From the NCBI RefSeq assembly GCF_007644045.2, contig NZ_VMDW02000026.1, forward strand, positions 1 to 35,709: 35,709 nt of DNA, read 5' to 3'. Shown piece after piece: positions 3,813 through 34,856 of this stretch (positions within the stretch are counted from its first letter, which is position 1; the number at the start of each line of letters is the position of its first letter). The position numbers were made by a program, and so were the translations under genes. Under the pieces are notes generated by a model. That model saw only the letters and a list, made by a program, of their open reading frames with translations, was not told the DNA's origin and searched no databases. Source of the DNA: Vogesella urethralis. GTDB taxonomy: Bacteria > Pseudomonadota > Gammaproteobacteria > Burkholderiales > Chromobacteriaceae.

Positions 3813-5003
3813 GTGGAGAACTTACCGATGCGGGATGGCCTGACGCTGGGCTCCCATTTCCAGCCCATTTACAGCCTGGCCCACCGCCGTACTGTGGGTA
3901 TGGAGGCGCTGCTGCGCGCCGCCGAACAGGGCAATGCGCTGAGTCCGCCGCAGGTATACGAGCGTTACATCCGCCGCGACGAGCGGGCGGCAATGGACCT
4001 GGCCGTGGTGCGGGCCCATTGCGCGCAGTTCCTGGCCATGAACGGTGGCCAGCGCTGGCTGTTTCTGAATATCGATGCGGTGACGCTGGCCGATCTGAGC
4101 TACGTGCAGCAACTGCAGCAGATCATTGCAGAATCCGGCATTCCGCCGCAGCTGATCGTGCTGGAGGTGCTAGAACAGGCGCTGGAGCTGGACGCCGGTT
4201 TGCTGGAAGGCGTGGCGTTGCTGCGCGAGCAGGGCTGCCTGCTGGCGATCGATGATTTTGGTGTCGGCCACTCCAACCTGGACCGTGTCTGCAGCCTGGA
4301 GCCGGACTTCATCAAGTTTGACCGCCACTTGCTGCGTAGTGCCGTCAACCAGCAGCGCACGCGCACCTTGTTGTCGCGTCTGGTGCGATTGATGCACGAA
4401 ATTGGTGCATTGGTAGTGGTGGAGGGGGTGGAGAGCGAATCCGACGTGGTGGTGGCGCTGGACTCCGGCTGCGACCTGGTGCAGGGCTACTACGTGGCCC
4501 GCCCGGCGGCAGTGCCGGACCGCGACGAGCAGATTACCCCGCGGCTGGACGCCAAGTGGGACGAGCTGATGAACCGCGAGCTGCTGCGCCGCAAGCTGAA
4601 CCGCCGCCAACTGGAGCTATCGCGCCAGGCCTTTGTGCAGACCGCCATCGCGCTGATGCAGGGCAACGAGTTCAGGTTGGCCGCACAGCCGATGCTGAAC
4701 CTGCCGGACGTGATCCGCTGCTTCCTGCTGGATCAGGAAGGGCGCCAGCTGGGCCGTAACCTGAACGTGCGCGAACTGTCCGAGGCGGATCAGTTGCGCT
4801 TTGCGCCGCTGGAAGATACGACCGGCGCGGTGTGGTCGCGTCGCAGTTACTTCCAGCACGCCATCGACCAACCCGGCGTGCTGTACATGAGCGAGCCCTA
4901 CCTGTCGATGACGGACACCCGCACCTGCGTCACGCTGTCGATGGCGATCGAGATCGACGAGCAGATGCACGTGCTGTGTTCGGATGTGATGTTGCCCAAG
5001 TAG
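3813..5003 (+). CDS. EAL-domain c-di-GMP phosphodiesterase with C-terminal sensor-like domain
   Basis: 396 aa, cytoplasmic, no membrane segment seen. The EAL domain (about 12-240) keeps the catalytic signatures: EALLR near residue 31, the Asn of FLNID, the Glu of LEVLE, IDDFG near 145, the Lys of FIKFD, VVEGVE near 204 and QGYY near 225. It should therefore hydrolyse c-di-GMP to pGpG. There is no GGDEF domain. The C-terminal part (about 275-390) contains WSRRSYFQHA and SEPYLSMTDTRTCVTLS, which look like a PDC/Cache-type fold as in YkuI-like EAL proteins, so activity may respond to a ligand. The GTG start at 3813 is chosen because GGAG lies 7 bp upstream; the ATG at 3828 is the alternative. 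Its position just after the adhesin gene suggests it lowers c-di-GMP in the circuit that LapD senses; that link is inference. Confidence 0.85.
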   Translation: MENLPMRDGLTLGSHFQPIYSLAHRRTVGMEALLRAAEQGNALSPPQVYERYIRRDERAAMDLAVVRAHCAQFLAMNGGQRWLFLNIDAVTLADLSYVQQLQQIIAESGIPPQLIVLEVLEQALELDAGLLEGVALLREQGCLLAIDDFGVGHSNLDRVCSLEPDFIKFDRHLLRSAVNQQRTRTLLSRLVRLMHEIGALVVVEGVESESDVVVALDSGCDLVQGYYVARPAAVPDRDEQITPRLDAKWDELMNRELLRRKLNRRQLELSRQAFVQTAIALMQGNEFRLAAQPMLNLPDVIRCFLLDQEGRQLGRNLNVRELSEADQLRFAPLEDTTGAVWSRRSYFQHAIDQPGVLYMSEPYLSMTDTRTCVTLSMAIEIDEQMHVLCSDVMLPK

Positions 5004-5020
5004 TGGCGGCCGCTGGCCAG

Positions 5021-5062
5021 CACAAAAAAGCCCTGACCGTGTGGTGCCAGGGCTTTTTTGTG
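5021..5062. terminator. Bidirectional terminator between convergent genes
   Basis: A perfect 15-bp inverted repeat, CACAAAAAAGCCCTG with CAGGGCTTTTTTGTG and a 12-nt loop, carries an A-run on one side and a T-run on the other. It can end transcription both of the EAL gene and of the dolP operon on the other strand. Confidence 0.92.
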
Positions 5063-5073
5063 TGCCACGCGCC

Positions 5074-5649
5074 TTATTGGGCGGGTGCAGGATCGAACAG
5101 GGTGACGACTTGGCGAACGCCAGCGGTACGGGCGGCAACCTGGGCGGCGGCTTCGCCTTCGGCATCGCTGACCAGGCCCAGCAAGTAGACCACGCTGCGT
5201 TCGGTGACGACCTTGATGGCATTGGGCGGGTAGCCCTGGCCTTCCAGCAGCCGGGTGCGTACTTTGGTGGTGAGCCAGGTGTCATTGTTGCGGTTGGCCA
5301 GCGTGCTGGCCGGAGCGACCACCAGGTGGTTGTAGACGCGGCGTACATTCGGAATGCCGCGTACTGCCAGCTCGATGGCTTCCTTCTGCGCCTCGTCCAC
5401 CGCCTCTCCCGTCAGCAGCACGGCGCGGTTATAGCTGGTGGCATTGACGTGGCTGCCGGCAAAACGCTCGGCCAGCTGTTTTACCGCCTTCAGCTCGATG
5501 CCCTGGTCTTCCACGTAGGTACCGCTGGTGCGGCGGTCGGTGGCCACCATGGCGCTGGCGGCAACACCGCCGGCTACCAGCGGGAAGCAGGCGCTCAGGT
5601 TGGCCGCAAGCAGGGTGGCCACGGTGAGGCCGATCAGGCGGGATGTCAT
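5074..5649 (-). CDS. dolP: BON-domain outer-membrane lipoprotein, DolP/YraP-like
   Basis: 191 aa. A signal peptide ends in a lipobox, LSAC, with the acylated Cys at residue 21. Two BON domains follow (about 45-115 and 122-190), containing AVLLTGEAVDEAQ and SVVYLLGLVSDAEG, the usual BON beta-hairpin pattern. In E. coli, DolP is an outer-membrane lipoprotein that binds anionic phospholipid and supports envelope integrity. It is the last gene of the minus-strand cluster. Its ATG directly abuts the diaA stop codon (TAA then ATG), and its Shine-Dalgarno sequence GGAGG lies inside the end of diaA, so translational coupling is likely. The gene order matches E. coli yraM-yraN-diaA-yraP, which supports the name. 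Confidence 0.88.
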   Translation of the reverse strand: MTSRLIGLTVATLLAANLSACFPLVAGGVAASAMVATDRRTSGTYVEDQGIELKAVKQLAERFAGSHVNATSYNRAVLLTGEAVDEAQKEAIELAVRGIPNVRRVYNHLVVAPASTLANRNNDTWLTTKVRTRLLEGQGYPPNAIKVVTERSVVYLLGLVSDAEGEAAAQVAARTAGVRQVVTLFDPAPAQ

Positions 5650-6240
5650 TTAGTCTCCTCCCAGAAGCATGTAGTCGATGGCATCGCACAGCGCGTGGAT
5701 GACCAGCAAATGGATTTCCTGGATACGGGCGGCACGGGTAACCGGCACGTTGAGGTGCAGGTCTTCCGGTGACAGGATTTCAGCCACCTGGCCACCGTCG
5801 TTGCCGGTCAGGGCAATCACACCCATGCCGCGCTCGTGGGCGGCGTAAATGGCCTCGACGATATTGGCCGAATTACCCGAATTGCTGATCACCAGCAGCA
5901 GGTCGTTATGGTGGCCGATGGCCCGCACCTGTTTGGAGTAGATCAGGTCGAATTCGTAGTTGTTCCCGATCGCGGTCAGGGCAGGGCTATCGTTGGACAG
6001 TGACAGCGCGGCCAGGCCCGGGCGTTCTTTTTCGAAATGCCCCAGCATATTGGTGACGAAGTGGTGGCCCACGGCAGCACCGCCGCCATTGCCGCAGCAC
6101 AGGATCTTGCCTTCGTTCATCAGGCTGGCCACCAGTTTTTCGGCAGCCACCGCAATGGCGGGGGCCAGTTCGTCCATGACCAGCTGCTGCATCGCGATGC
6201 TTTCGCGGAAGTGCCCGCTGGCGCGATCAATCAAATCCAT
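5650..6240 (-). CDS. diaA: SIS-domain protein, DiaA-like DnaA-associating factor
   Basis: 196 aa, a single SIS domain (about 30-190) with CCGNGGGAAVGHHF and VISNSGNS as sugar-phosphate-binding loops. Such proteins are often annotated as phosphoheptose isomerase GmhA. However, the Glu that binds zinc in GmhA (HFAEE) is replaced here (HFVTN), and the surrounding sequence (KILCCGNG, ERPGL, YSKQVRA, RIQEIHLL) is closer to DiaA. DiaA in E. coli binds DnaA and promotes timely replication initiation. The operon position between yraN and dolP also fits DiaA. The start at 6240 is chosen because AAGGA precedes it; a longer frame from 6258 has no ribosome binding site. The isomerase reading cannot be excluded. 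Confidence 0.8.
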   Translation of the reverse strand: MDLIDRASGHFRESIAMQQLVMDELAPAIAVAAEKLVASLMNEGKILCCGNGGGAAVGHHFVTNMLGHFEKERPGLAALSLSNDSPALTAIGNNYEFDLIYSKQVRAIGHHNDLLLVISNSGNSANIVEAIYAAHERGMGVIALTGNDGGQVAEILSPEDLHLNVPVTRAARIQEIHLLVIHALCDAIDYMLLGGD

Positions 6241-6271
6241 CGTCCATCCTTGTTGCATGGCCAGCCGGTGG

Positions 6272-6610
6272 CTAGCTGATGATGTTCTTTAACCAGACGG
6301 GCGGCGCGTCGCCGTCAAACAGTACCGCGTCGAAGCGGCAGCGCGCCCGGGTACCGTGCTGGCTGAGGTAAAGGTTGGCCGCCGCTTGCAGCTTGCGGCA
6401 TTTGTCCGGCCCGATGCTGGCGGCCGCACCGCCAAAGCGGCTGCTGCGCCGCGCCCGCACCTCGACAAAAACCAGCCACGTACCGTCCTGCATGATCAGG
6501 TCGATTTCGCCGAAGCGGCAGTGCCAGTTGCGGGTATGCAGGCGCAGCCCTTGTTGCTGCAGATAGTGGCAGGCTTGTGTTTCGAAGTCACTGCCACTCT
6601 CTCGACTCAT
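6272..6610 (-). CDS. yraN: UPF0102 family protein YraN
   Basis: 112 aa from the ATG at 6610 (a GTG codon sits just before it). It shows the UPF0102 pattern: GSDFETQACHYLQQQGLRL at the N-terminus, then NWHCRFGEIDLIMQD and LVFVEVRAR. GEIDLI plus VEVRAR match the D-ExK-like core of the Holliday-junction resolvase-like endonuclease fold, in which the acidic residues are the metal ligands. No specific function is established. The start codon overlaps the lpoA stop (TGATG), which implies coupled translation in the lpoA-yraN-diaA-dolP operon. Confidence 0.88.
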   Translation of the reverse strand: MSRESGSDFETQACHYLQQQGLRLHTRNWHCRFGEIDLIMQDGTWLVFVEVRARRSSRFGGAAASIGPDKCRKLQAAANLYLSQHGTRARCRFDAVLFDGDAPPVWLKNIIS

Positions 6611-7743
6611 CACTCGGCCCCGATGATGCTGCCGGGCAATTCACGCTGCACGACCCAGCCCTTGCCAATACGCAGGTCGCCACTGACGCCACCCAGGCGG
6701 ATTTGTGCCGGGTTCTTGCTGCTGGCCAGCGCCAGGCCCAGGCGGTAGGCGTCGATACCCAGCGCGTACAAGCGCTCGGTAGCCTTGTTCATCGGCGTTG
6801 CCGGGCGGGCAATCTGCCGGGTTTCCGGATGGTTGGGAATCAGGAACCACGGCATGTCCACCAGACGCACACCATTCAGTACCGGGCTAGGGTTGCGTAC
6901 ATTGGCCAGCGAGGTAGCGTAAGCTGGCATCTCGGCGGCCAGCAGGGCGCGGGTGGCTTCTACTTCTTTGGTGTCCAGCGCCAGGAAAACGCTGTCACTG
7001 GCTGCCAGTCCGGTTTGCAAACGGGCACCATCCGGGGTGGAAACATCCAGCTCGCGTGCCGGTTGCTTGCTCTTACCGCGCCATTCTTCGGCAAAGGCCT
7101 GGCGCAGGCGCTGCGACAGATTGTCCTTGTTGAACAGCACCAGCGGCTGCTGGCGGCCGTCGTCGCGCATCATGCGGGCAATCTGCTGCGCTTCGGTTTC
7201 CACCGCAACAGACAGGCTCCACACCTTGCTGCCGGCCGGCGGTGCCTTGTCCAGCGTGTTGAGTACCAGCGTTGGCAGTTTGCTGCTGGCTGCCAAGTTG
7301 GCCGCGCCCTGGCGCGTGAGTGGCCCGATGATGAAGCCTGCCCCCTGGCCAAGCAGCTGCTGGTATGCCTGGCTGGTCTGGCTATCGTCCTCCATTGCCG
7401 CCACACTGGTTTCCGCGCTGCCATCGGCCGCGGCGGCCGCGTCAAAGCCGGCTTTTACCACTTGGGCGGCTTCACCGAATTGGGGTGAGTTCAGCGGCAA
7501 CATCAGGCCCAGATGCACGCGAGGCTTGTTGCCTGCCTGCTGGGGGACTGAAACCGTCTTGTTGGCCGGCAACGGGCTGGCTTGCGCGGCAGGGGCGCTG
7601 CGGGCCGGGCTGCCCGCCGAAAGGGGGGACTGATTTTGCTGAAGTATGTAGCCCGGCGATTGGGCAATCGCTACACTGGCCGCCATTAAGACGGCAGAGC
7701 CGGACAACCAGGGAGCCAAAACGTGCAGACAGCGCTTGATCAC
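6610..7743 (-). CDS. lpoA: Penicillin-binding protein activator, LpoA/LppC family (short form)
   Basis: 377 aa. An N-terminal hydrophobic signal (about 9-27) is followed by a Pro/Ala/Ser-rich linker, and then a periplasmic-binding-protein-like domain begins near 75 with [33 protein letters not shown] follows around 135. In enterobacteria LpoA is an outer-membrane lipoprotein that activates PBP1A through its C-terminal domain and has a TPR-like N-terminal domain. Here the TPR-like part is absent and there is no lipobox Cys (the only early Cys, at residue 5, precedes the hydrophobic core), so the protein is either secreted or anchored by its signal segment. The start is a GTG at 7743 without a convincing ribosome binding site. 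It lies inside the 5' end of the divergent rsmI frame. Confidence 0.82.
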
Positions 7744-9906: not shown

Positions 9907-11535
9907 ATGAAGAATGTGAGCCTGATTACCCGCTTGGGGCTGGGGTTCGGTTTCATGCTGCTGATCATGCTGCTGATCTCGGCCAGCGGTTTGCTGGCGG
10001 TACGGCAAGCGGATGGCAGCCTGACGGAGCTGGTCAATCGTAGCCTGGTTTTTAGCGATCACATCCAGGATGTGCGTGCTGAGGTGGGCAACTTGCGCCG
10101 TTACGAAAAAGACCTGTTCCTGAACATGCAAAGCGTGGAGAAGCGTAAAGAGTACCTGGAAAAGTGGCAAGGCAGTGCTGCCAAAGTGCAGCAGCGGTTG
10201 ACGGCTGCCTCGGCGCTTGGCGATGCGGACGACACCACAGCAATCCAGGCATTGACCACGGCCATGACCAACTATGAGTCGGGTTTGCGTCAGGTGTTGG
10301 CGCAGATCGAGGCCGGGGCGTTACAAACGCCGCAAGATGCCAACAAGGCGCTAGAGCCGGTGAAGGAATCGGTACGCAGCATGGAAGGCGCCACCAAGAA
10401 GCTGGTGGAGAAGGCGGCCTCTCAGGCGGTGGCCCAGCAGCAGGGGGTGCAGGCCAGAATGGCGTCGGCCAGCGTGACGATGTGGAGTCTCAGTGCACTG
10501 GCCTTGTTGGTGGGCAGTGTGGCGGGGGGGCTGATTGCGCTTTCCATCCGACAGCCGCTTAACCAGATAACCCGCCTTGCCGAGCAACTGGCGCAGACGC
10601 GCGACCTGACGGTGACCATGCCGGACTTTGGCAATAACGAGGTTGGCCGCACGGCCAAGGCGCTGGACCATCTGATTGCGACGGTGCGTGAACTGATACG
10701 TGAGTCGCATCAACATTCGGCACGCCTGGTGGTGGCATCGGAGCAGTTGTCGCTGACGAGCCAATCTATTCATGATGCGGCGGTTAACCAGTCCAATGCC
10801 GCGGCGGCCAGCGCTGCCGCCGTGGAGCAATTGACTGTCAGCGTGAGTGTGATGGCGGATAATGCGCAGGGGGTGCAAGACCAGGCGCGTCAGACGTCGG
10901 ACGAGGCGCAATCTGGCAGCGACATGTCTGTAGCAGCCGCCAGTCAGATCCAGGATATTGCCAGCAGCATTGCTGAAACGTCGAAAACCATCGATAGCCT
11001 GAATCAGCGCTCGGATGAGATTGGCACCATCGTCAATGTGATACGGGATATTGCCGATCAGACCAATCTGTTGGCGCTGAATGCAGCGATCGAAGCGGCA
11101 CGCGCAGGCGAGAGTGGACGCGGTTTTGCCGTGGTAGCCGATGAGGTCCGCAAGCTGGCCGAGCGTACCAGCCAGGCTACAACGGAAATCTCGACCCGCA
11201 TTGCCGGCGTGCAGCGCGATACGCAGCAGGCTTACCAGAATATGCAGCAGGCCAGCAATCTGGTATCGAGTGGTGTAGAAGGAACGCAGAAAGTCTCGCA
11301 GTCATTGCACCGTATTTACGAGTCGTCGCGTGAGTCGCAAAGCAAGGTAGTAGACATGGCCGGTGCGATTCAGGAGCAGCGAATCGCCAGCCATGATATT
11401 GCCCAGAACATGGAGCAGATCGCGCAGATGAATGACCAGACGCGGCTGACCGTGGCGCAGGCTTCCGAGTTGGCCGCTCAGCTGAAACAGCAGTCCCAGG
11501 AGTTGGATGGCAGTATTACCCGCTTCCGGGTATAG
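9907..11535 (+). CDS. Methyl-accepting chemotaxis protein
   Basis: 542 aa with the standard layout: TM1 (about 9-31), a periplasmic helical-bundle sensor (about 32-188, 4HB-MCP-like, with [12 protein letters not shown] near its start), TM2 (about 190-213), HAMP (about 214-266) and a signalling domain. The hairpin tip, starting near residue 384, reads [20 protein letters not shown] followed by [17 protein letters not shown], and would contact CheA and CheW. No C-terminal NWETF-like pentapeptide for CheR is present. The ligand is unknown. AAGGGGA upstream of the ATG is a good ribosome binding site. It is probably monocistronic, ending at the terminator shared with the convergent TolC-like gene. 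Confidence 0.93.
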
Positions 11536-11650: not shown

Positions 11651-13633
11651 TTACTTGACGGTGCCGGGTTGGGTGGCCGGAGGGGTACGGCGAATCAGCG
11701 GGTTGGCCGATGCCGGTGCTGCGGGTTTGGCTGTTGGCAGCACGCTGGCTTTGTTGGCCGGCGGCAGTAGCAGGGCCGGTTTGGCAGCTGGGGCAGCAGG
11801 TTTAATGCTGGCCATGTCGTGCAGAACTACGGCAACACGACGGTTCAGCGGGTCGTTGGCGGCTTTGCCAGGTAGCGGCTGGATATCGCCGCGACCGATG
11901 CTGTCCAGACGGCTACCATCGACGCCCTTGGCAACCAGATAGTCGTGCACGCTTTTCGCCCGTTGTTGCGACAGGGTCAGGTTGAGTGCCGGGTTGCCGG
12001 TGCTGTCGGTATGCCCTTCGATCAGGAAGCGCTTCTGGGCCATCTGCGGCATGCGCAGCGTCGTCGCCAATTGATCCAGCATCGGCAGGCTTTCGCTGCG
12101 GATGGCCGCAGAGTTCAGGTCAAATTGCACCTGCATGTTGACGGTAACGTCACGCGAGCCCAGTGCCGGCGCGCTATTGGCAGTGAGCGCAGGAAGTTCG
12201 GCTGCAGTGTCAGCGCTGGTATTGAAGGAGCGGGCGGCAATCTTGCTGGTATCCAGCGGTGTGGGGGCCACGTAGCTGGTGGGGCAGCTGGGTGCATTCA
12301 GATCCGCATCCTTGTTGCTGTCTTCATCCTTGGGCTGTAGCTGCATGGTTTCCATCAGACGGCCGGACTCGCCCAGTACGCGGTAAACGGCGAGTTGCTG
12401 GTTCAGTTCGGCATTGAGCAGTTCGCGACGGGCTTCGAACAGCTCGTTTTCGCTATCCAGCATGTCCAGCAGTGTGCGCTGGCCGATATCGAACTGCTTA
12501 CGGTAGGCGTCGCGTGCTTTTTCGGTAGAGAGCTGGTGCTGGCGCAATGATTCCAGCTGGCCGCCAATGCGAACGGTATCGTTGTAGGCAATGGACACCT
12601 GCTGTCGCATGTCGCGGCACGCCTTGACGCCGAGTGCTTCCGCTTCGTCACGACGTTCGGTTGCCGACGCGAGGCGTGCCCGGTCCGCGCCACCGCGATA
12701 CAGGTTCATGCTCAGCACCAGCTCGATGGCTTGCTCATCGGTTCGGCCTTTCACGCCATCCTTGTTGTGTGTGCCAGACTTGTTGGCACGCAGGTCCAGG
12801 GTGGGGGAGAACGCGCCGCGGCGGACGTCGATTTCCGCTTCTGCGGCACGGTAGAAGGCCCTGGCCGCTTGCAGGCTGGGGTTGCGGCGGTCAGCCAGGA
12901 CCATGACATCGTTTGCTGGCGGTACCAGGGAAAGATTGAGGCCTGGCAGCTTCAGTTCGTTGGGCGGCGCATCGCCGGTAATGCGGGCATAACGTGCCGA
13001 AACGTCATTGAGATTGGACAGTTCGTTAACCAGGTTCGATTCGGCCAGCGCCAGACGGCCTGCGATCTGTTCCAGATCGACGCGGCGGCCAACCCCTTGG
13101 GTGACGCGCTGCAGGATCTGTTCGTAGATGCCTTTGTGAATGGCGTAGTTTTCTTCTGCAATACCAACCAGTTTGCTGTAGCGCACGACGTCCATGAAAG
13201 CGCGCACCGCTTCCAGGCCTTGCTGTTCGGCCGTGGCGAGGTATTCGTAGTATCGGGCCCGGCTGGTATAGTCGAGCTGTTTAACTTGGTTGGTCGTGAT
13301 GAAGCCATTGAAGACGTTCTGGTTCACGGCGACCGAGTAACCGCGGCGGGTGAAATCTTGTTTGCTAATGCTGCCGGTGCTGGTGGGCGTTTTGTTGTTT
13401 TCTCGCGCGACGGCGTAGTTAAGATCGACGCTTGGCAGGAAACCTGCACGCGCGACGCCTTGTTCTTCTACGCTGGAGCGAAAGGTGTGCCACTTCATGC
13501 GTACTTCCGCATTGTTCTTGAGAGTCTGTTCGACGGCGTCTTTCAGTTCCAGTGCGTGGCTAGTCAGCGGCATCGACAGCGCCAGCAGTGCTGCCAGCGT
13601 GGAACCAGTGATGCGTTTTGAGCGGAAGTTCAT
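11651..13633 (-). CDS. TolC-family outer-membrane channel fused to an OmpA peptidoglycan-binding domain
   Basis: 660 aa. A signal peptide (about 1-27, ending SHA) leads into a TolC/OEP channel (about 28-420) containing LKDAVEQTLKNNAEVR, and GRRVDLEQIAGRLALAESNL and FDIGQRTLLDMLDSENELF, hallmarks of type I secretion outer-membrane proteins. After a linker with two Cys comes an OmpA C-terminal domain (about 495-610) with VQFDLNSAAIR, EGHTDSTGNPALNLTLSQQR and NRRVAV, the peptidoglycan-binding pattern. A Pro/Ala-rich tail ends the protein. Typical TolC proteins are about 450 aa and lack this domain. The role is inferred as export of the RTX adhesin, with the OmpA part anchoring the channel to the cell wall. 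In other bpf/lap-type loci a separate OmpA gene sits beside the TolC gene. It is divergent from lapG; GAGG precedes the ATG. Confidence 0.9.
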   Translation of the reverse strand: MNFRSKRITGSTLAALLALSMPLTSHALELKDAVEQTLKNNAEVRMKWHTFRSSVEEQGVARAGFLPSVDLNYAVARENNKTPTSTGSISKQDFTRRGYSVAVNQNVFNGFITTNQVKQLDYTSRARYYEYLATAEQQGLEAVRAFMDVVRYSKLVGIAEENYAIHKGIYEQILQRVTQGVGRRVDLEQIAGRLALAESNLVNELSNLNDVSARYARITGDAPPNELKLPGLNLSLVPPANDVMVLADRRNPSLQAARAFYRAAEAEIDVRRGAFSPTLDLRANKSGTHNKDGVKGRTDEQAIELVLSMNLYRGGADRARLASATERRDEAEALGVKACRDMRQQVSIAYNDTVRIGGQLESLRQHQLSTEKARDAYRKQFDIGQRTLLDMLDSENELFEARRELLNAELNQQLAVYRVLGESGRLMETMQLQPKDEDSNKDADLNAPSCPTSYVAPTPLDTSKIAARSFNTSADTAAELPALTANSAPALGSRDVTVNMQVQFDLNSAAIRSESLPMLDQLATTLRMPQMAQKRFLIEGHTDSTGNPALNLTLSQQRAKSVHDYLVAKGVDGSRLDSIGRGDIQPLPGKAANDPLNRRVAVVLHDMASIKPAAPAAKPALLLPPANKASVLPTAKPAAPASANPLIRRTPPATQPGTVK

Positions 13634-14507: not shown

Positions 14508-16421
14508 ATGAAACGCGTTTCCCTCATCCAGCAATTATGGATCCTGGTTATTGCAGCTGTGGTACTGGCTGCCGCAGGCAGCCTGACGGCCAACCTGTTT
14601 AATGCCCGTGATTACATGCAGCAGCAGTTGGCCGCGCAGAGTGCCGATGCGGCCAACTCGCTGGCGCTGCTGATTACCCAGAACAAAGCCGACCCGGTGA
14701 TGGGCGAGACCCTGATCAATGCCGCATTCGACCAAGGGCATTTCCGGCGTGTGCAGTGGGTGAATGCCAAGGGGCAGCCGCTGGTACAGCGGGTGAATGC
14801 CCAGAAAATCGGCAACGCACCGCCCTGGTTCCAGCAGGTATTTACGTTGGCACCTTCGCCAGCCAGGGCAATGGTCAGTAGCGGCTGGATGCAGGCCGGC
14901 TACGTTGAAGTGGAAAGCGAAGCCGGTTATGCCTACGACGCCTTGTGGCGTGGTGCGTTGAATGTGTCGTTCTGGGTGCTGTTGGCGGGGCTGGTGGTGG
15001 GCGGGGTCGGCTCGATCGGCGTCGGTACCATTCGCCGGCAATTGCTGGCCGTGGTCAATCAGGCCAAGTCCATCACCCAGCGCCGCTTTGTCACCATCCC
15101 CGAGCCGCAGGGCCCGGAGATGGGCAGGCTGGCGCAGGCAATGAACGCCATGGTGATGCGGGTAAAAGCCATGTTCGAAGAAGAGGCTGCGCGGCTGGAG
15201 GCCCTGCGTCGCGAGATCAACTTCGACAAGGTAACCGGGCTGGCCAATCGTGGTTTTTTCATGGGCCGTCTGGGCGCAGAGCTGGCCGAGCGCGACAAGC
15301 AGGGGCGAACTTTGCTGTTGATGCGCATTGATGGGCTGGCCGAGCTGAATGCCCGCCTGGGCCGCCCGCTAACCGACGAGATGCTGGCGCAGTTTGGGGC
15401 GCGCATGCGTGATACCGAACGCTTCGGTGCCGACAGCATGGCGTCCCGCCTCAATGGCGCAGACTTCGCCTTGTTGCTGGCCAGTGCGCAGGCGGAATTG
15501 CCGCGGCTGGAGGCCGTGCAGACCGAGCTGGTGGCCATGCTGGGCAGTTTCGCTTCGCAAGAAGTTGGCTTGGCCATGGCGGCAACCGATATCCGCGATG
15601 GCGATACCATCCGCGATGTGATGTCCCGCCTGGATAATGCACTGGCGCTGTCCGAGGCGGCAGGGGGCGTGCGGGTGGCGTTTGCCGACGAGCAAGTCAG
15701 CAAACCGCAAGCCATCACCGCCGACGGCTGGGCGGGGCTGCTGGACGACGCTGTGGCGGCCGGTCGCCTGAAACTGGTGCGTTTTGCCGTGCGTAATGCC
15801 GCGGGTGGCATGTTGCATGAGGAAGCACCGCTACGTTTGCAGCATGCTGATGAGTGGTTGCCTGCCGGCCAGTTCATGCCGATGGCCATTCGTACCCGCC
15901 GCGTGGCGGCGCTGGATCTGGCAGCCGTGGCGCTGGCCCTGGAGCAGTTGGCCGCCGACCCGGCGTGCCCGGGTATTGCCGTAAACCTGGCGGCCGAGTC
16001 GCTGGAAGACGAACACTATGTGCGCAGTCTGGTGGCGCTGATTCGTGGTCAGCGCGTGGCGGCCGCGCGCTTGTGGCTGGAAATGGCGGAAGTCGGCATC
16101 GTGCCGCGCTTCGAACGCTTCCGTACCCTGTGCCTGGCCTTGGCCGACTTGCCGTGCAAGGTGGGTATCGAACACTTTGGCCGTCAGTTCAGCTTGATTG
16201 GTCAGCTGCATGATCTGGGCATCGACTACCTGAAGATCGATGGTAGCTTTGTGCAGCAGATCGATACCGAAGCCGGTAATCAAGCCTTCCTGCGCGGGGT
16301 GTGCAATATTGCGCACAACATCGGCCTGGGCGTGGTGGCAGAAGGGGTGCGTACTGATGCCGAGCAGGAAGTGCTGCTGTCGCTTGGCTTCGATGGCCTG
16401 ACCGGGCCGGGGGTCAAATAA
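14508..16421 (+). CDS. lapD: LapD-type inner-membrane c-di-GMP receptor with degenerate GGDEF-EAL domains
   Basis: 637 aa. TM1 (about 8-28), a periplasmic LapD/MoxY-like module (about 29-148), TM2 (about 149-173), HAMP (about 174-225), GGDEF (about 236-390) and EAL (about 400-632). The GGDEF signature is NGADF near 315 and the EAL motif reads EAP near 438, so both enzymatic activities are probably lost, as in known LapD. The EAL fold remains (YLKIDGSFVQQI, VVAEGV), suited to binding rather than cleaving c-di-GMP. In the known system, c-di-GMP-bound LapD sequesters LapG at its periplasmic face. The gene is co-transcribed with lapG (8-bp gap) and ends at a strong terminator, so lapG-lapD form a two-gene unit. 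Confidence 0.92.
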   Translation: MKRVSLIQQLWILVIAAVVLAAAGSLTANLFNARDYMQQQLAAQSADAANSLALLITQNKADPVMGETLINAAFDQGHFRRVQWVNAKGQPLVQRVNAQKIGNAPPWFQQVFTLAPSPARAMVSSGWMQAGYVEVESEAGYAYDALWRGALNVSFWVLLAGLVVGGVGSIGVGTIRRQLLAVVNQAKSITQRRFVTIPEPQGPEMGRLAQAMNAMVMRVKAMFEEEAARLEALRREINFDKVTGLANRGFFMGRLGAELAERDKQGRTLLLMRIDGLAELNARLGRPLTDEMLAQFGARMRDTERFGADSMASRLNGADFALLLASAQAELPRLEAVQTELVAMLGSFASQEVGLAMAATDIRDGDTIRDVMSRLDNALALSEAAGGVRVAFADEQVSKPQAITADGWAGLLDDAVAAGRLKLVRFAVRNAAGGMLHEEAPLRLQHADEWLPAGQFMPMAIRTRRVAALDLAAVALALEQLAADPACPGIAVNLAAESLEDEHYVRSLVALIRGQRVAAARLWLEMAEVGIVPRFERFRTLCLALADLPCKVGIEHFGRQFSLIGQLHDLGIDYLKIDGSFVQQIDTEAGNQAFLRGVCNIAHNIGLGVVAEGVRTDAEQEVLLSLGFDGLTGPGVK

Positions 16422-16467: not shown

Positions 16468-16495
16468 CATGCCGGGTGTGAGTAACACCGGGGCG

Positions 16496-16506
16496 GGTTG
16501 GCCGCA
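16496..16506 (+). repeat. Intergenic copy of the GGTTGGCCGCA repeat
   Basis: Exact copy of an 11-mer found at least 11 times in the window. It lies between the lapD terminator and the convergent Tim44-gene terminator and is not part of either stem. See the repeat finding for the full list. Confidence 0.7.
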
Positions 16507-17605: not shown

Positions 17606-18307
17606 TTAGTTCTGGGCGGGTGTGATTATTTCAAGTACGCAGGCTAGTTGGCCCTGCACGGTAAAGCGTACGTCGCAGTCCGCCAGGCGGATGCCGTATA
17701 CGCGTGCCGGGTCGTCCTGGTAGGCAGGGCGCGGGTCTTGTGCCAGCACCTCGTCGATCAGTGCGGCCAACCATGACGGTGCCTGCGGCCAGGCGTGCAG
17801 ATCGGCTAGTGCCTTGGGTTGCCATTGCACCGACAGCTGCGGTGGGGGGCCGTCGACAAAGCCGCCGCGCGCCTCGGGCTTGGCTTCCACAAACGGAATG
17901 TACGGCTTGATGTCCAGCACCGGGGTGCCGTCCAGCAGGTCGGCACCGCCCAGATGCAGGGTGACGCCGTCGCGGGTGTCGATGTCTTTCAGTGCTACCA
18001 GCGACAGGCCCAAACCGTTGGGGCGATGGGTGGCACGGCTGGCAAACACGCCCACCTTGCTGTTGCCGCCCAGCCGCGGCGGGCGTACCAGCGGCTGCCA
18101 GCCGCGGGCCAGGGTTTCGTGGAAGACGAAGGTAAGCCAGACGTGCGAGAACGCGTCCAGGCCGCGCACGCAGTCGGGCTGGTTGTAGGGCGGGTGCAGG
18201 ACAAGGCTGACCGGTGCCGACGGCGCTAGCGCCGGCTGGCGCGGGATGCCGAATTTTTCCTGGTACGGCGAACGGATGGTGCCGATAGGTTCGAGGGTGT
18301 AGTGCAT
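17606..18307 (-). CDS. trmO: tRNA (N6-threonylcarbamoyladenosine(37)-N6)-methyltransferase TrmO
   Basis: 233 aa. The N-terminal TrmO/TsaA beta-barrel carries YTLEPIGTIRSPYQEKFGIP, LDAFSHVWLTFVFH and RATHRPNGLGLSLV, all family signatures. The C-terminal part (VDGPPPQLSVQW and the terminal VRFTVQGQLACVLEI) is the normal TrmO C-domain. TrmO methylates t6A at position 37 of a tRNA-Thr using SAM. On the minus strand a -10-like TACAAT lies about 13 nt before the ATG, so the leader may be very short. The upstream neighbour is an OlsB-like gene ending at 18378, separated by an inverted repeat. Confidence 0.93.
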   Translation of the reverse strand: MHYTLEPIGTIRSPYQEKFGIPRQPALAPSAPVSLVLHPPYNQPDCVRGLDAFSHVWLTFVFHETLARGWQPLVRPPRLGGNSKVGVFASRATHRPNGLGLSLVALKDIDTRDGVTLHLGGADLLDGTPVLDIKPYIPFVEAKPEARGGFVDGPPPQLSVQWQPKALADLHAWPQAPSWLAALIDEVLAQDPRPAYQDDPARVYGIRLADCDVRFTVQGQLACVLEIITPAQN

Positions 18308-18323: not shown

Positions 18324-18355
18324 AAGGTTGGCCGCAGCGGCTTGCGGCCAACCTT
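18324..18355. repeat. Perfect inverted pair of the GGTTGGCCGCA repeat, terminator-like
   Basis: AAGGTTGGCCGCA (18324-18336) and TGCGGCCAACCTT (18343-18355) form a perfect 13-bp stem with loop GCGGCT. It sits 22 bp after the OlsB-like gene stop on the minus strand, with only a short T-run (TTT) following. It is built from two copies of the window-wide 11-mer in opposite orientation, as seen for inverted DNA-uptake sequences that act as terminators in Neisseria. Confidence 0.8.
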
Positions 18356-19325: not shown

Positions 19326-21218
<1,893 letters not shown>

Positions 21219-22742: not shown

Positions 22743-23603
22743 ATGGCCAAACTCAAAGGACTCGGGCGCGGCCTGGACGCGCTCCTCTCCACCGTCGAGG
22801 CAGACAACGAACGCCTGACCACGCTGCCGGTCGGCAGCATCCGCCCTGGCCGTTACCAGCCACGCAGCCATATGGACGAAGCCGCGCTGGCCGAGTTGGC
22901 CGCGTCCATCAAGTCGCAAGGCCTGATCCAGCCTGTGGTGGTGCGCGAGATCGGTCTGGGTGATTACGAACTGATCGCCGGCGAACGTCGCTGGCGCGCC
23001 AGCCAGCTGGCGGGCCTGGCCGAGATTCCGGCTGTGGTGCGCAGCGTAGCCGACCAATCGGCGTTGGCGATGGGGTTGATCGAGAACATTCAGCGCCAGC
23101 AACTGGACCCGCTGGAAGAGGCGCGCGGCATCAAGCGCCTGATCGAAGAATTCGGCCTGACCCATGAAGCCGCGGCCGAAGCACTGGGCCGCTCGCGCAG
23201 CGCCATCAGCAACCTGCTGCGTCTGCTGGCGTTGCCTGAGCCGTTGCAACAGATGCTGCACGAAGGTCAACTGGAAATGGGGCATGCCCGTGCGCTGCTG
23301 CCGTTGCCAGTGCTGGAGCAGATGACGCTAGCGCAGGCTGTGGTAGCGGAACAACTGTCGGTGCGCGAAGTCGAGCAGCGCGTACAGGCGCTGGCCGCGC
23401 CCAAGGTTGGCCGCAAAGCGGCGGCTGCCCAGGTGAAAGATGCCGATATCGATCGCCTGGCTAACCTGCTGTCAGACAAGCTGGGCATGACGGTCAGCTT
23501 CCGTCATGGTAATAAAGGCAAGGGCAAGTTGATCATCGATTATGCAAGCCTGGACGAGCTGGACGGGCTGCTGGAAAAACTGCAAGCAAAATCAACTGGC
23601 TGA
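22743..23603 (+). CDS. parB: Chromosome partitioning protein ParB (Spo0J)
   Basis: 286 aa. Residues 1-12 give KLKGLGRGLDALL, the family N-terminus. The CTPase/nuclease-like domain holds IRPGRYQPRSHMDEAALAEL and ELIAGERRWRASQLAG (about 77-92), and ENIQRQQLDPLEEARG (about 113-128). A helix-turn-helix (LTHEAAAEALGRSRSAISN, about 138-156) should recognise parS. The C-terminal part carries the dimerisation domain. ParB loads on parS and slides as a CTP clamp. It is the last gene before the atp promoter. Confidence 0.96.
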   Translation: MAKLKGLGRGLDALLSTVEADNERLTTLPVGSIRPGRYQPRSHMDEAALAELAASIKSQGLIQPVVVREIGLGDYELIAGERRWRASQLAGLAEIPAVVRSVADQSALAMGLIENIQRQQLDPLEEARGIKRLIEEFGLTHEAAAEALGRSRSAISNLLRLLALPEPLQQMLHEGQLEMGHARALLPLPVLEQMTLAQAVVAEQLSVREVEQRVQALAAPKVGRKAAAAQVKDADIDRLANLLSDKLGMTVSFRHGNKGKGKLIIDYASLDELDGLLEKLQAKSTG

Positions 23604-26302: not shown

Positions 26303-27844
26303 ATGCAGTTGAACCCCTCTGAAATCAGCGATCTGATCAAGGCGAAGATTCAGAACCTGGCTGAAGGTGCCGAGACCCGTACCAAAGGTACTGTGATCTC
26401 CGTAACCGACGGTATCGTTCGTATCCACGGCCTGACAGACGTGATGCAGGGTGAAATGCTCGAGTTCTCGGGCAACACCTTTGGCCTGGCCATGAACCTG
26501 GAGCGTGACTCCGTAGGTGCCGTGATCCTGGGCGAGTACGAGCACATCTCCGAAGGTCAGGAAGTGAAGTGCACCGGCCGCATTCTGGAAGTGCCGGTAG
26601 GTCGCGAACTGGTTGGCCGCGTGGTAAACGCGCTGGGTCAGCCGATCGATGGCAAAGGCCCGATCAATGCGTCCGCTGCTTCCCCGATCGAAAAGATTGC
26701 TCCGGGCGTAATTGCCCGTCAATCCGTATCGCAACCGATGCAAACCGGCCTGAAGTCGATCGACTCCATGGTACCGGTTGGCCGCGGCCAGCGTGAACTG
26801 ATCATTGGCGACCGTCAGACTGGTAAAACCGCCGTGGCACTGGATGCCATCGTGAACCAGAAAGGCACCGGCGTTATTTGTATCTACGTAGCCGTAGGTC
26901 AGAAAGCGTCCTCCATCGCCAACGTAGTGCGCAAACTGGAAGAGCACGGCGCAATGGGTCACACCATCGTGGTTGCTGCTACCGCTTCCGAAGCTGCCGC
27001 ACTGCAGTTCATCGCACCGTACTCCGGCTGCGCGATGGGCGAATACTTCCGCGACATCGGTGAAGATGCGCTGATCGTATACGATGACCTGTCCAAACAG
27101 GCCGTTGCCTACCGTCAGATCTCCCTGCTGCTGCGCCGCCCGCCGGGCCGCGAAGCTTACCCGGGCGACGTATTCTACCTGCACTCCCGTCTGCTGGAAC
27201 GCGCTTCCCGCATCAACGCGGATGAAGTAGAAAAGCTGACTGGTGGCGCCGTGAAAGGCAAAACCGGCTCGCTGACCGCTCTGCCGATCATCGAAACCCA
27301 AGCTGGTGACGTTTCCGCTTTCGTTCCGACCAACGTAATTTCCATTACCGACGGTCAGATCTTCCTGGAAACCGATCTGTTCAACGCTGGTATCCGTCCT
27401 GCTATTAACGCAGGTATTTCGGTATCCCGCGTGGGTGGCGCTGCGCAAACCAAGGTCATCAAGAAACTGGGCGGTGGTATCCGTCTGGCTCTGGCCCAGT
27501 ACCGCGAACTGGCTGCGTTCTCGCAGTTTGCTTCCGATCTGGACGAGGCGACCCGCAAGCAGCTGCAACACGGTGAAGTGGTTACCGAGCTGATGAAGCA
27601 GAAACAGTTCTCGACCCTGTCTACCGCCGAAATGGCGCTGACCCTGTGGTCCGTGAACAAGGGTTACTACGAAGACGTACCGGTCAAGAAAGCCCTGGCT
27701 TTCGAAGCTGCTTTCCTGGCTTACGTTCGCGCTAATCACGCCGACGTACTGACCGCGACCGACGCTTCTGGTGATCTGTCTGCCGACAACGAAAAAGTAC
27801 TGGCCAAGGCGATCGAATCGTTCAAGGCTGGCTACAGCTTCTAA
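26303..27844 (+). CDS. atpA: ATP synthase F1 subunit alpha
   Basis: 513 aa, the standard length. P-loop [13 protein letters not shown] at about 169-181, the catalytic-site arginine finger in [13 protein letters not shown] (about 370), and the alpha-type N-terminus [19 protein letters not shown]. Non-catalytic nucleotide-binding subunit of the head. AGGAGAG precedes the ATG. Two near-copies of the 10-mer GGTTGGCCGC (26611, 26776) lie within it. Confidence 0.97.
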
Positions 27845-30740: not shown

Positions 30741-32105
30741 ATGGAATCTCTAAGCGTAGTCATTCTGGCGGCCGGCAAGGGCAAGCGTATGTACTCGGCC
30801 CTGCCCAAGGTGCTGCACCCCATCGGCGGCCAACCCATGCTGGCCCGCGTCATCGACACCGCCCGCCAGCTGAACCCGGGCAAACTGGTGGTGGTATACG
30901 GCCACGGTGGCGACCTGGTGCGCGAACGCATTACCGATGCCGACGTGGAGTGGGCATTGCAAGCCGAGCAACTGGGGACCGGCCACGCACTGAAGATGGC
31001 GTTGCCGCACCTGCCCAAGGTTGGCCGCACCTTGGTGCTGTACGGCGACGTGCCGTTGACTACGCTGGAGACCCTGCAACAGCTGCTGGATGCGGCACAG
31101 CAAGGCATCAGCCTGCTGACTGACGTGCTGGCCGACGCCAGCGGCTACGGCCGCATCGTACGTAACGAGGCCGGCGAAATTGTGGCCATCGTCGAAGACA
31201 AAGACTGTAACGCCGAGCAGAAAGCCATCCGCGAAATCAACACCGGCATGATGGTGCTGCCCAACGACAGACTGGAAGGCTGGCTGGGCGAGCTGCGCAA
31301 CGGCAATGCGCAAGGCGAGTACTACCTGACCGACGTGATCGAGCTGGCGGTTCGTAACGGCCTGGCCGTGCCGGGCGTTACCGTGGGCGCCAGCTGGGAA
31401 GCCGCTGGCGTCAACAACAAGGTGCAACTGGCCGAGCTGGAACGCCAGTTGCAGCTGAACCAGGCGCGTGCGCTGCTGACCGCCGGCGTGATGCTGGCCG
31501 ACCCGGCACGCATCGATATCCGCGGCCAACTGCAGCACGGCATGGATGTCAGCATCGACGTCGGCTGCGTGTTCGAAGGCCAAGTTACCCTGGGCGATAA
31601 CGTGGAGATTGGTGCCTACTGCGTGCTGAAAAACGTGCAGGTCGCCGCGGGTACCCGCATTGCGCCGTACTCGCATCTGGAAGACGCCGTGGTGGGTGAA
31701 GCCTGCCGCATCGGGCCGTACGCTCGTCTGCGCCCGGGCGCCGAGTTGGCCGCACACGTGCACGTGGGCAACTTTGTCGAGATCAAGAAAGCCACCGTGG
31801 GCGAAGGCTCCAAGGTTAACCACCTCACCTACATCGGCGACGCCCAGATCGGCAGCAAGGTGAACGTGGGCGCCGGTTCGGTGACCTGCAACTACGATGG
31901 CGTCAACAAGTTCAAGACCGTCATCGGCGATAACGTGTTTGTTGGCTCCGGCACCCTGATGGTGGCGCCGGTGACGCTGGAAGAGGGCGCCACCATTGGC
32001 GCCGGTTCGGTCGTTACCAAGACCGCCCCGGCTGGCCAGCTGACCGTGGCGCGCGCCAAACAGCTTACTGTGGCTGGCTGGCAGCGCCCGCAAAAGCTCA
32101 AGTAA
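30741..32105 (+). CDS. glmU: Bifunctional GlmU: GlcN-1-P acetyltransferase / GlcNAc-1-P uridyltransferase
   Basis: 454 aa. The N-terminal nucleotidyltransferase begins VVILAAGKGKRMYSALPKVL (about 6-25), with QLGTGHALKMAL, YGDVPLTTLETLQ and EINTGMMVLPN. The C-terminal left-handed beta-helix (about 250-454) holds hexapeptide repeats, KKATVGEGSKVNHLTYIGDA with its catalytic His (near 361), and CNYDGVNKFKT. GlmU makes UDP-GlcNAc for peptidoglycan and LPS. No good ribosome binding site precedes the ATG; a CATAAT -10-like element lies about 40 bp upstream. It is upstream of glmR and glmS, which supply the glucosamine-6-phosphate for the same pathway. Confidence 0.96.
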   Translation: MESLSVVILAAGKGKRMYSALPKVLHPIGGQPMLARVIDTARQLNPGKLVVVYGHGGDLVRERITDADVEWALQAEQLGTGHALKMALPHLPKVGRTLVLYGDVPLTTLETLQQLLDAAQQGISLLTDVLADASGYGRIVRNEAGEIVAIVEDKDCNAEQKAIREINTGMMVLPNDRLEGWLGELRNGNAQGEYYLTDVIELAVRNGLAVPGVTVGASWEAAGVNNKVQLAELERQLQLNQARALLTAGVMLADPARIDIRGQLQHGMDVSIDVGCVFEGQVTLGDNVEIGAYCVLKNVQVAAGTRIAPYSHLEDAVVGEACRIGPYARLRPGAELAAHVHVGNFVEIKKATVGEGSKVNHLTYIGDAQIGSKVNVGAGSVTCNYDGVNKFKTVIGDNVFVGSGTLMVAPVTLEEGATIGAGSVVTKTAPAGQLTVARAKQLTVAGWQRPQKLK

Positions 32106-32122
32106 GCGAGCCCGAATCCACC

Positions 32123-32146
32123 ACCCCGCTGCGGCGGGGTTTTTTT
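32123..32146 (+). terminator. Terminator of glmU
   Basis: ACCCCGC, loop TGCG, GCGGGGT, then six further T. It separates glmU from the glmR-glmS unit. Confidence 0.93.
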
Positions 32147-32175
32147 ATGCCAATTACAACTTGTCAGCCGGAATC

Positions 32176-32211
32176 TTTCGCGATAGTATCGCGAAACTTT
32201 CGGAACGAAAG
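32176..32211. promoter_or_regulatory. Palindromic operator upstream of glmR
   Basis: A perfect 9-bp dyad, TTTCGCGAT-agt-ATCGCGAAA (32176-32196), lies 23 bp before the glmR start. CTTTCG occurs at 32175 and 32198, and its complement CGAAAG at 32206-32211. DeoR-family regulators commonly bind sites with repeated CTTTCG/TTTCG units, so autoregulation of glmR-glmS is a reasonable inference. Confidence 0.65.
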
Positions 32212-32219
32212 ATAAATGC

Positions 32220-32993
32220 ATGACCAAAAGAAACACGCAGCAGCGCCGTCACGCGATTGTGGCGCTGGTGCAAGAGCGGGGTGAAGTCAGCGTCGACGAG
32301 TTGACGCAGCGCTTTGCCACCTCGGAAGTCACCATCCGCAAAGACCTGGCGCTGCTGGAAACCGGCGGCCTGCTGCTGCGTCGCTACGGCGGTGCGGTGT
32401 CCTTGCCCAGCGAAATGGTGGCCGAACCCGACCCGCAACAGGTTTCGGTACGAAAGATGGCGATCGCGCGTGCGGCGGCCAACCGGCTGCGCGATCACAA
32501 CCGCGTCATCATCGACAGCGGCACCACCACCCGCAGCATGATTCCGCTGCTGGGCAGCAAGCGCGGCCTGGTGGTAATGACCAATTCGCTGAACGTGGCC
32601 GGTGCGCTGCGCGAGCTGGAAAACGAGCCCACGCTGCTGATGACCGGCGGCACCTGGGACCCGCATTCCGAGTCGTTCCAGGGCCAGATCGCCGAGCAGG
32701 TACTGCGTTCGTACGACTTCGACCAGCTGTTCATCGGTGCCGACGGCATCGACCTGGCACGCGGCACCACCACCTTCAACGAGCTGGTGGGGCTGTCGCG
32801 GGTAATGGCCGACGTGGCCCGCGAAGTGATCGTGATGGTGGAATCGGAAAAAATCGGCCGGCGTATTCCCAATCTGGAGCTGCCCTGGAGCAGCATCCAT
32901 ACGCTGGTAACAGACGACGCCCTGGCCGACGACGCCAGGGCCCAGATAGAAGCCCGGGGCATTACCGTGATCTGCGCCCCGCTGGCAGACTGA
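32220..32993 (+). CDS. glmR: DeoR-family transcriptional regulator, GlmR-like
   Basis: 257 aa. N-terminal DeoR winged helix (about 6-60): [36 protein letters not shown] and LRRYGGAV. The C-terminal DeoR sensor domain (about 75-240), of the ribose-isomerase-like fold, has [16 protein letters not shown] near 97 and [17 protein letters not shown] near 172; it senses phosphorylated sugars in this family. A DeoR gene between glmU and glmS is known in Pseudomonas as glmR, where it affects GlmS expression, and the context here is the same. It is 22 bp upstream of glmS, so the two are probably co-transcribed, and the palindrome at 32176-32196 is its candidate operator. The effector is not readable from sequence. 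Confidence 0.85.
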
Positions 32994-33015
32994 GTTTGAC
33001 TCAAGGAGACGCAGC

Positions 33016-34845
33016 ATGTGTGGCATCGTCGGGGGCATCGCCCAGCGCAATATCGTTCCGGTACTGGTAGAAGGCCTGAAGCGCCTGGAATACCGCGGTT
33101 ATGACTCGTCCGGCATTGCCGTGCACATGGGTAACGATATTACCCGCGTGCGCCGTGTTGGCCGCGTGGCCGAAATGGAAGCCGCAGCGCTGGCTGAGCA
33201 GGTAGAAGGCCAGCTCGGCATCGGTCACACCCGCTGGGCCACCCACGGCGGCGTTACCGAATACAACGCCCACCCGCACGTGTCGAACGGCCTGATCGCC
33301 GTGGTGCACAACGGCATCATCGAAAACCACGAAGAAAAGCGCGAAGCCCTGAAAGCCGCCGGCTACACGTTTGAATCGCAGACCGACACCGAAGTGATCG
33401 CCCACCTGGTACACCAGTACTACGTGGCAGAAAAAGACCTGTTCCGCGCCGTGCACCGCGCCACTCGCGAGCTGACCGGCGCCTACGCCATCGGCGTCAT
33501 CGCGCTGGACCGCCCCGACGAACTGGTGTGCGCGCGCATGGGCTGCCCGCTGCTGGTGGGCCTGGGCGAAGGCGAAAACTTTATCGCCTCCGACGTTTCC
33601 GCCGTGCTGTCGGCCACCCGTCGCGTCATCTTCCTGGAAGAAGGCGACATCGGCCACCTCACCCGTAGCAGCGTGAAGCTGATCGACAAGGACGACCAGC
33701 CGGTAGAACGCAAAGTGCACGTGTCCGACGTGTCGCTGGCGTCGTTGGAACTGGGCCCGTACAGCCACTTCATGCAGAAAGAAATCCACGAACAGCCGAA
33801 AGCGCTGTCCGACACCATCGAAGTGGTGCTGGACGACGGCTTCGTCCCCGAGCTGTTCGGGCCGGCTGCGGCCAACGTGCTGCCGCAACTGAGTGGCGTG
33901 AAGATCCTGGCCTGCGGCACCAGCTACTACGCCGGCCTCACCGCCAAATACTGGATAGAAAGCATCGCCGGCGTGGTGTGCGACGTGGAAATCGCCAGCG
34001 AATACCGCTACCGCGACGCCTACGCCGACCCGAACCACCTGGTGGTGACCATCTCGCAGTCCGGCGAAACGCTGGACACCATGGAAGCGCTGAAATACGC
34101 CAAGAGCCTGGGCCACCAGTACGCGCTGTCTATCTGCAACGTACGCGAATCCGCCATCCCGCGCGCGTCCGAACTGGTGTTCTACACCCGCGCCGGCGCC
34201 GAAATCGGCGTGGCCTCCACCAAGGCCTTCACCACCCAGCTGGTCAGCCTGTTTGCGCTGGCGGTCACGCTGGGCAAGGTACGCGGCCGCGTCAGTGCCG
34301 AGCAAGAGGCACAGTACCTGGACGAGTTGCGCCACCTGCCGGGCAGCGTGCAGCACGCACTGAACCTGGAGCCGCAGATCAAAGCCTGGAGCAGCCAGTT
34401 TGCCGCCAAGAACGACGCGCTGTTCCTCGGCCGTGGCCTGCATTACCCCATCGCGCTGGAAGGCGCGCTGAAGCTGAAGGAAATTTCCTACATCCACGCC
34501 GAAGCCTACCCGGCCGGCGAACTGAAGCACGGCCCGCTGGCGCTGGTAGACGAAAACATGCCGGTAGTGGTGATTGCCCCCAACGACGTGCTGCTGGAAA
34601 AAGTGAAATCCAACATGCAGGAAGTGCGCGCCCGTGGCGGCGAACTGTTCGTGTTTGCCGACGCCGACAGCCACTTTGTCGATTCCGACGGCGTACACGT
34701 CATCCGCACCCCGCGCCACGTGGGAGTGCTCAGCCCCATCGTGCACTCCATTCCGGTACAGATCCTGGCCTACCACGTCGCCCTGGCGCGTGGTACCGAC
34801 GTGGACAAACCGCGCAACCTGGCCAAATCGGTCACCGTGGAATAA
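33016..34845 (+). CDS. glmS: Glutamine-fructose-6-phosphate aminotransferase (isomerizing)
   Basis: 609 aa, the normal length. N-terminal class II amidotransferase with nucleophile Cys2 (MCGIVGG), [12 protein letters not shown] and VHNGIIEN. Two SIS domains follow (from about 285 and 455), with [35 protein letters not shown] and [13 protein letters not shown]. The protein ends in the highly conserved [10 protein letters not shown]. GlmS makes glucosamine-6-phosphate from fructose-6-phosphate and glutamine, the entry step to UDP-GlcNAc. CAAGGAGA precedes the ATG. There is no room for a glmS ribozyme in the 22-bp gap. Its 3' end is the target recognised by TnsD of Tn7. Confidence 0.98.
34784..34845 (+). 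other. attTn7-type recognition sequence in the glmS 3' end
   Basis: The last codons of glmS encode [17 protein letters not shown], nearly the same as in E. coli, where this DNA is bound by TnsD and Tn7 inserts about 25 bp past the stop. Here that canonical position (about 34870) falls in an intact terminator stem and shows no transposon end. Confidence 0.6.
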
Positions 34846-34856
34846 GGTTGGCCGCA
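34846..34856 (+). repeat. Copy of the GGTTGGCCGCA repeat directly after glmS
   Basis: Exact 11-mer beginning immediately after the glmS stop codon (TAA) and before the terminator stem. One of at least 11 exact copies in the window. Confidence 0.7.

Follow-up and report, generated by a model that had tools for sequence, protein, structure and literature searches.

We examined a stretch of 35,709 nucleotides from Vogesella urethralis (contig NZ_VMDW02000026.1, positions 1 to 35,709; hereafter the window) that is punctuated by a short repeated word, the 12-mer AGGTTGGCCGCA, whose true repeat unit is the 10-mer core GTTGGCCGCA. Fifteen copies of this core lie in the window, 11 of them as the exact 11-mer GGTTGGCCGCA and four more in other contexts. 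A first-pass annotation had reported the 11-mer as a repeat resembling DNA uptake sequences, and our recount located 11 of 11 copies at the positions and on the strands it gave, nine with an A directly 5', as it had also said. Its rough estimate that chance copies should be far below one holds as well (mean 0.05, maximum 1 for GGTTGGCCGCA; 100 dinucleotide shuffles of the window).

The exact copies lie both within and between genes. On the plus strand, AGGTTGGCCGCA falls within an EAL-domain gene (copy at 4674..4685; gene 3813-5003), an open reading frame (ORF) with no Pfam family at E 1e-5 (5597..5608; ORF 5041-5772), a chemoreceptor gene encoding a methyl-accepting chemotaxis protein (10640..10651; 9907-11535), mnmG (20674..20685), parB (23404..23415) and a gene with glmU-type domains (31018..31029; 30741-32105), while the first base of another copy (34845..34856) is the last stop-codon base of a gene with glmS-type domains (33016-34845). 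GGGTTGGCCGCA, also on the plus strand (16495..16506), stands downstream of a LapD/GGDEF/EAL gene ending at 16421. The minus-strand copy TGGTTGGCCGCA (17762..17773) had been read as antisense to dolP; a Pfam match places it in the TrmO gene (17606-18307, minus strand), where it lies in sense. The two remaining copies form an inverted pair (18325-18354) between trmO and a GNAT gene, with its left arm on the plus strand (18325..18336) and its right arm on the minus strand (18343..18354). This pair had been called terminator-like; a simple terminator scan did not list it, and no five-T run follows on either side.

The four further cores have other upstream bases at 1147..1156 (minus), 14648..14657 (minus) and 31745..31754 (plus), or lie within ACGTTGGCCGCA (33867..33876, minus). 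All seven copies of the shorter GGTTGGCCGC that had been noted were recovered; they are variants with a relaxed base at position +10 of the core, namely GTTGGCCGCC at 6372..6383 (plus), 13084..13095 (minus), 19903..19914 (plus), 30825..30836 (minus) and 32474..32485 (minus), and GTTGGCCGCG at 26610..26621 and 26775..26786 (both plus).

The repeat extends far beyond the window. The genome that the window comes from (G000; 4,028,666 bases, 157 contigs) holds 680 exact copies of AGGTTGGCCGCA and 1871 of the core GTTGGCCGCA, with backward controls of 0 and 14. In a sample of 61 genomes (13 Vogesella, 24 others of the same family and 24 from other families of the order), the 12-mer occurs 680-1095 times in 13 of 13 Vogesella genomes (backward controls 0) and 0-15 times in the other 48. 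The core occurs 1871-2895 times in all 13 Vogesella genomes (backward controls 4-14), a density of about 460-710 copies per Mb, as against 8-58 times in 48 other genomes of the family. An order-wide search for GTTGGCCGMR gave at most 223 copies in 386 genomes outside the family and 1304-3107 in the eight word-carrying genomes of the same sample; two of the genomes outside the family (G123 and G288) had 82 and 139 copies against backward controls of 16 and 31. Inverted-order pairs of the 12-mer were found in at least 114 stretches in a scan of named species genomes, and the 80 such stretches among the matches listed all come from Vogesella species, 'Beta proteobacterium L13' or pond 'Neisseriaceae' metagenome-assembled genomes.

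The shape of the word was taken from 400 kb of a closed Vogesella genome (G001), where an order-4 model predicts 5.3 copies of the core and 274 are present. The fifth-order Markov expectation, a check that the first-pass annotation had proposed, is 13.2 and still far from the count, even though it is inflated because the model was trained on motif-bearing DNA. The core is sharp: the 30 one-mismatch 10-mers occur 0-14 times each and 75 times in total, against the 274 exact copies. Upstream of it A is preferred at -3 and -2 and G at -1 (frequencies of 0.54-0.57 for A at -2 and 0.54-0.62 for G at -1 in G001 and G000), and in G001 no flanking base outside -3 to +11 carries more than 0.15 bit. In a 434 kb sample of G000, which includes the window, nine positions are about as sharp as in G001 and only +10 is relaxed (A 181, C 90, G 76 and T 11, against 7.2, 13.6, 9.0 and 6.6 expected). 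The shorter copies in the window therefore belong to the repeat in this genome, in which GTTGGCCGCG occurs 623 times as against 161-269 times in five other Vogesella genomes (by subtraction of counts). The variant with T at +7 is rare in both samples (4 against 274 exact copies in G001; 3 against 181 in G000).

Copy density over 20 bins of 20 kb in G001 tracks GC content (Spearman 0.84). Bins hold 13.7 core copies on average, but those at 3.40 and 3.60 Mb (GC 0.58-0.59) have 3 and 5. Of these two low-density bins, the one checked as a possible mobile island (L253) contains ordinary genes, and a scan of nine of its ORFs gave no phage or integrase family, so a depletion of the word in mobile DNA is not supported.

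When k-mers were counted in 80-120 kb of DNA per genus, five of nine other genera proved to have the same word with a different ending, and the dialects can be named by their last two bases: CA for GTTGGCCGCA, AA for GTTGGCCGAA and AG for GTTGGCCGAG. Among 61 genomes of the family, the AA word occurs 183-2168 times in eight (G013, G022, G029, G014, G023, G016, G017 and G021) and 8-78 times in the other 53, and the AG word occurs 1940 times in G024, 1590 in G015, 165 in G023 and at most 92 in the other 58. With a carrier cut-off of our own choosing, under which G029 (183 copies) is the weakest genome counted, 23 of the 61 carry the word (13 CA, eight AA, two AG). The remaining 38 are without clear excess and comprise nine of 10 genomes in the genus g6, 19 of 19 in g7, six of six in g8 and four of four in g9. 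At +10, CA and AA words have A and AG words (G024 and G015) have G; in G000 this position is relaxed. That other genera of the family (ten genomes, 183-2168 copies) have dialects of their own, GTTGGCCGAA or GTTGGCCGAG, is new. The Vogesella word is one of several family dialects and, as the first-pass annotation had guessed, of AG type and unlike those described.

Several genomes are irregular. G017 is the sole carrier among the 10 g6 genomes (1368 copies of GTTGGCCGAA), which gives a set with and without the word inside one genus. G023 combines 579 AA with 165 AG words and G029 (84% complete) has only its 183 AA words; in either genome the dialect may be changing or decaying. Two g8 genomes, G027 and G036, hold 62/92 and 45/85 AA+AG words against backward controls of 13/21 and 11/17, a slight excess that could possibly be relics. 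In samples of G014 and G016, +1 seems relaxed, with 16 and 9 one-mismatch words, respectively, beside 26 exact ones in each. Larger samples of word-free genomes (280 kb of G035, 180 kb of G030 and 220 kb of g8) yielded no comparable repeat: the top 10-mers of G035 are weak (CAGCGCCAGC, 70 against 20.8; CAGCCGCTCG, 25 against 3.2), and those of G030 are words of a repeated tRNA-like type.

The mnmG copy in the window (20675) allowed the dialects to be compared at one site in an alignment of 50 genomes. Here GTTGGCCGCA is present in 11 of 13 Vogesella genomes and the remaining two have CTTGGCCGCA, while one genome in each of three other genera bears its own form, GTTGGCCGAG in G024 and GTTGGCCGAA in G014 and G021. 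The exact word is absent from the other seven dialect genomes (G015 has CTTGGCCGAA) and from all 27 word-free genomes. The local MnmG protein sequence favours GGCCG, so convergence is easy at this site; the ending of the word still follows the genus.

From these properties, we conclude that GTTGGCCGCA, preferably behind AG, is very probably the DNA uptake sequence (DUS) of Vogesella, read by a ComP-type pilin. In this proposal, which agrees with the uptake reading of the first-pass annotation, a ComP-type minor pilin on a type IV pilus would bind the word in extracellular double-stranded DNA, the pilus would pull the bound DNA through PilQ, and a single strand would enter via ComEC and then recombine. 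Word-bearing DNA would be taken up more often, and copies would build up within and between genes on either strand; sister genera would have drifted to dialects of their own (GTTGGCCGAA and GTTGGCCGAG). Binding, uptake and accumulation by uptake bias are what we infer here from the repeat and the genes.

PMC3630211 describes eight DUS dialects in the Neisseriaceae, all with CTG in the core, and about 1900 copies of the 10-mer per genome in Neisseria meningitidis; according to PMC12061091, none of the bases of this CTG core tolerates a change. The Neisseriaceae DUS and the Vogesella word share a 10-mer core with two semi-conserved 5' bases, many copies genome-wide, lineage dialects and a ComP homologue. 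Both are also far above expectation and lie partly in inverted pairs. Compared with AG-simDUS and AG-mucDUS, the AA word AGGTTGGCCGAA matches at 9 of 12 positions (p 0.004-0.005), with 8 of 12 for the CA and AG words (p 0.015-0.028; letter shuffles throughout), in a comparison from which wadDUS was left out. The host family differs. The uptake signal sequence of the Pasteurellaceae has a 9-mer core with AT-rich flanks; it too is a short over-represented word, but its letters are unrelated and the flanks here carry little information.

The genes for such an uptake route are present in G000. The top PDB entry for its ComP-like pilin (L199, C46:60833-61255) is 2nba (E 6e-7), catalogued as a prepilin-type protein and taken here to be ComP of N. 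subflava; 2m3k ('Minor pilin ComP', 2e-5) and 5hz7 ('ComP', 3.9e-5) rank third and fourth. The gene for PilQ (466.6 bits) shares the contig with this pilin gene, at a distance of about 2.2 kb, and ComEC scores 334.8 bits against a cut-off of 190. No ComP model was among the NCBIfam matches, and no comP was found in the named Vogesella loci L031-L144 at E 1e-3. Like Neisseria ComP, the protein bears the alpha1-beta1 signature ENAxxxExFYxxxGxxKxxxTxWPxLP (PDB alignments) and has a soluble part of similar length. Most ComP-like pilins of word-carrying genomes have a conserved NTD loop. The surroundings of the comP-like gene vary. In G000 (C46:57414-61255) pilQ and aroB are close by, and a FimT-like gene runs with its end into it; several relatives (L219, L276-L279) have it behind a gene ending in RRLAWREL, perhaps as part of a minor-pilin operon.

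Some pilin match is found in 61 of 61 family genomes, and a ComP-like pilin was extracted from 46 of them, including 23 of 23 with the word. The 15 genomes outside this set are G027 (divergent, filtered out), G070 (other pilin) and 13 that were not fetched, among them the four g9 genomes, whose listed pilin matches cover the N-terminus only. In the extracted pilins, Lys at K59 in the alpha1-beta1 stretch (G005 numbering) is present in 21/23 with the word and 0/23 without, Thr at T92 in the NTD loop (G005 segment) in 20/23 and 0/23, and Lys or Arg at position 90 (G005 segment) in 19/23 and 0/23. Within g6, the loop of the carrier G017 reads NTDAG and that of its five extracted word-free sisters NARAD, an independent within-genus contrast; at position 59 G017 has Thr, not Lys, like its sisters. 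G000, with its relaxed +10, has NTDPD, alone among the 13 Vogesella genomes.

Several observations weigh against an uptake word read by this ComP-like pilin. Unlike the DUS of the Neisseriaceae, all three dialects have CCG and not CTG at +6 to +8. The PDB alignments to ComP span only about 40 residues, and a geopilin that is not ComP ranks second. The DD region of Neisseria ComP has four Cys in two disulfides (PMC4906244, PMC12061091), whereas the outer part (from residue 25 of the aligned segment on) has 2 Cys in 44 of 46 pilins and 3 in G001 and G017, not four, so there is no DD region stapled by two disulfides. A ComP-like pilin also occurs in at least 23 of the 38 word-free genomes, including G035 of g7, and the pilin alone thus does not predict the word. 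The residue associations are the best of many columns, with statistics that ignore kinship. Finally, no report of natural transformation in Vogesella was found by title or start of abstract, in a search that lay outside preprints and most subscription journals. The word is nevertheless most likely a DUS in function, judging from its sequence properties, and no member of the CTG-core set of the Neisseriaceae with its DD region.

Some of these points would fit a true uptake sequence that is read not by the ComP-like pilin but by another: there are 17 N-methyl pilin matches in G000 (16 above the cut-off), and the ComP-like pilin lacks a second disulfide and is present in word-free genomes too. 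We regard this as unlikely, though worth keeping in view, given that the ComP-like loop residues go with the word even inside g6.

We consider it improbable that the word is a regulatory or structural element with no part in uptake that has spread through the genome, such as a terminator stem, a repetitive extragenic palindrome or bacterial interspersed mosaic element (REP/BIME) or a nucleoid-protein site. The 274 copies in G001 do include 97 intergenic ones against 65 expected, and there are 21 neighbours on opposite strands within 60 bp. The intergenic surplus is rough, since only 76% of the DNA falls in called genes and some genes were probably missed. However, 170 copies lie in called genes (seven more overlap them) and use all six readings (sense 45/14/31, antisense 36/12/32), most copies are unpaired, and genus-specific dialect switches are not expected of terminators. 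Still less probable is a motif read by a recombination or segregation protein, of the kind of Chi or the FtsK-orienting polar sequences (KOPS). These are also short over-represented oligomers, but they are strand-polar along the replichores. The first-pass annotation had left room for such a motif on account of a plus-strand skew; nine of 11 exact copies in the window are indeed on that strand, but the excess is local, with 338 plus and 342 minus copies of AGGTTGGCCGCA in G000 as a whole. Relative to the replication strand as given by GC skew, neither sampled genome shows polarity (129 leading and 145 lagging cores in the 400 kb of G001, p = 0.36; 97 against 84 in the 434 kb of G000, p = 0.37), opposite-strand pairs occur and the dialects diverge in their final two bases. 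Composition or codon-pair bias of GC-rich genomes can practically be dismissed, despite the correlation of density with GC, in view of the low backward controls in Vogesella, the excess over the order-4 expectation, relatives of similar GC that are without the word, and the use of all six readings, so that no codon pair explains it.

The uptake reading came through both checks that the first-pass annotation had set against it, the Markov count and the codon-pair comparison. On two MnmG trees, which are without outgroup and have several backbone nodes with support of 9-60, the distribution of the word takes 4 changes (mean 17 after shuffling) or, with midpoint rooting and a single gain, 5 losses. 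We prefer losses from a single ancestral system because the eight-base core is identical in all carriers, and the 9/12 and 8/12 matches to AG-simDUS and AG-mucDUS hint at common descent with the DUS of Neisseria. In PMC3630211, the origin of the DUS was inferred to lie after the split from Chromobacterium (C. violaceum), where BLAST found no ComP, and five genomes examined outside the Neisseriaceae had no obvious DUS. The genera of these five presumably belong to the family of Vogesella. The Vogesella 12-mer was not found in the searched literature in either orientation; the 10-mer GGTTGGCCGC occurs there, in papers that seem to be on other subjects. None of the three core dialects was found as a whole word in the literature searched, which lay outside preprints, most subscription journals and the supplement of PMC3630211; one dialect may already stand, unexplained, in Table S1D of that paper, among the over-represented 10-mers of Chromobacterium, Laribacter, Lutiella and Pseudogulbenkiania.

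A joint reading of these data, which we hold to be evenly balanced between right and wrong, is that ComP-type recognition of an uptake word would predate the split of the Neisseriaceae from this family, and that on this side it would use a GTTGGCCG-NN word whose core is CCG, read by a ComP that lacks the DD staple. Its last two bases would be the dialect code (CA, AA or AG, the last base being relaxed in G000), and the word would have been lost about five times (in g6 except G017, in two lineages of g7, in g8 and in g9). At least 23 of the 38 word-free genomes would then have kept the ComP-like pilin, with K59 and the NTD loop coming and going with the word.

A second dialect family with a different core offers natural comparisons for how ComP reads DNA: G017 against the other g6 genomes, the different dialects met at a single site, and a species in which one position is relaxed. 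The question of ComP specificity thereby becomes testable by swaps between environmental species, and the prediction is that the 23 carrier species would be naturally transformable and would prefer their own DNA.

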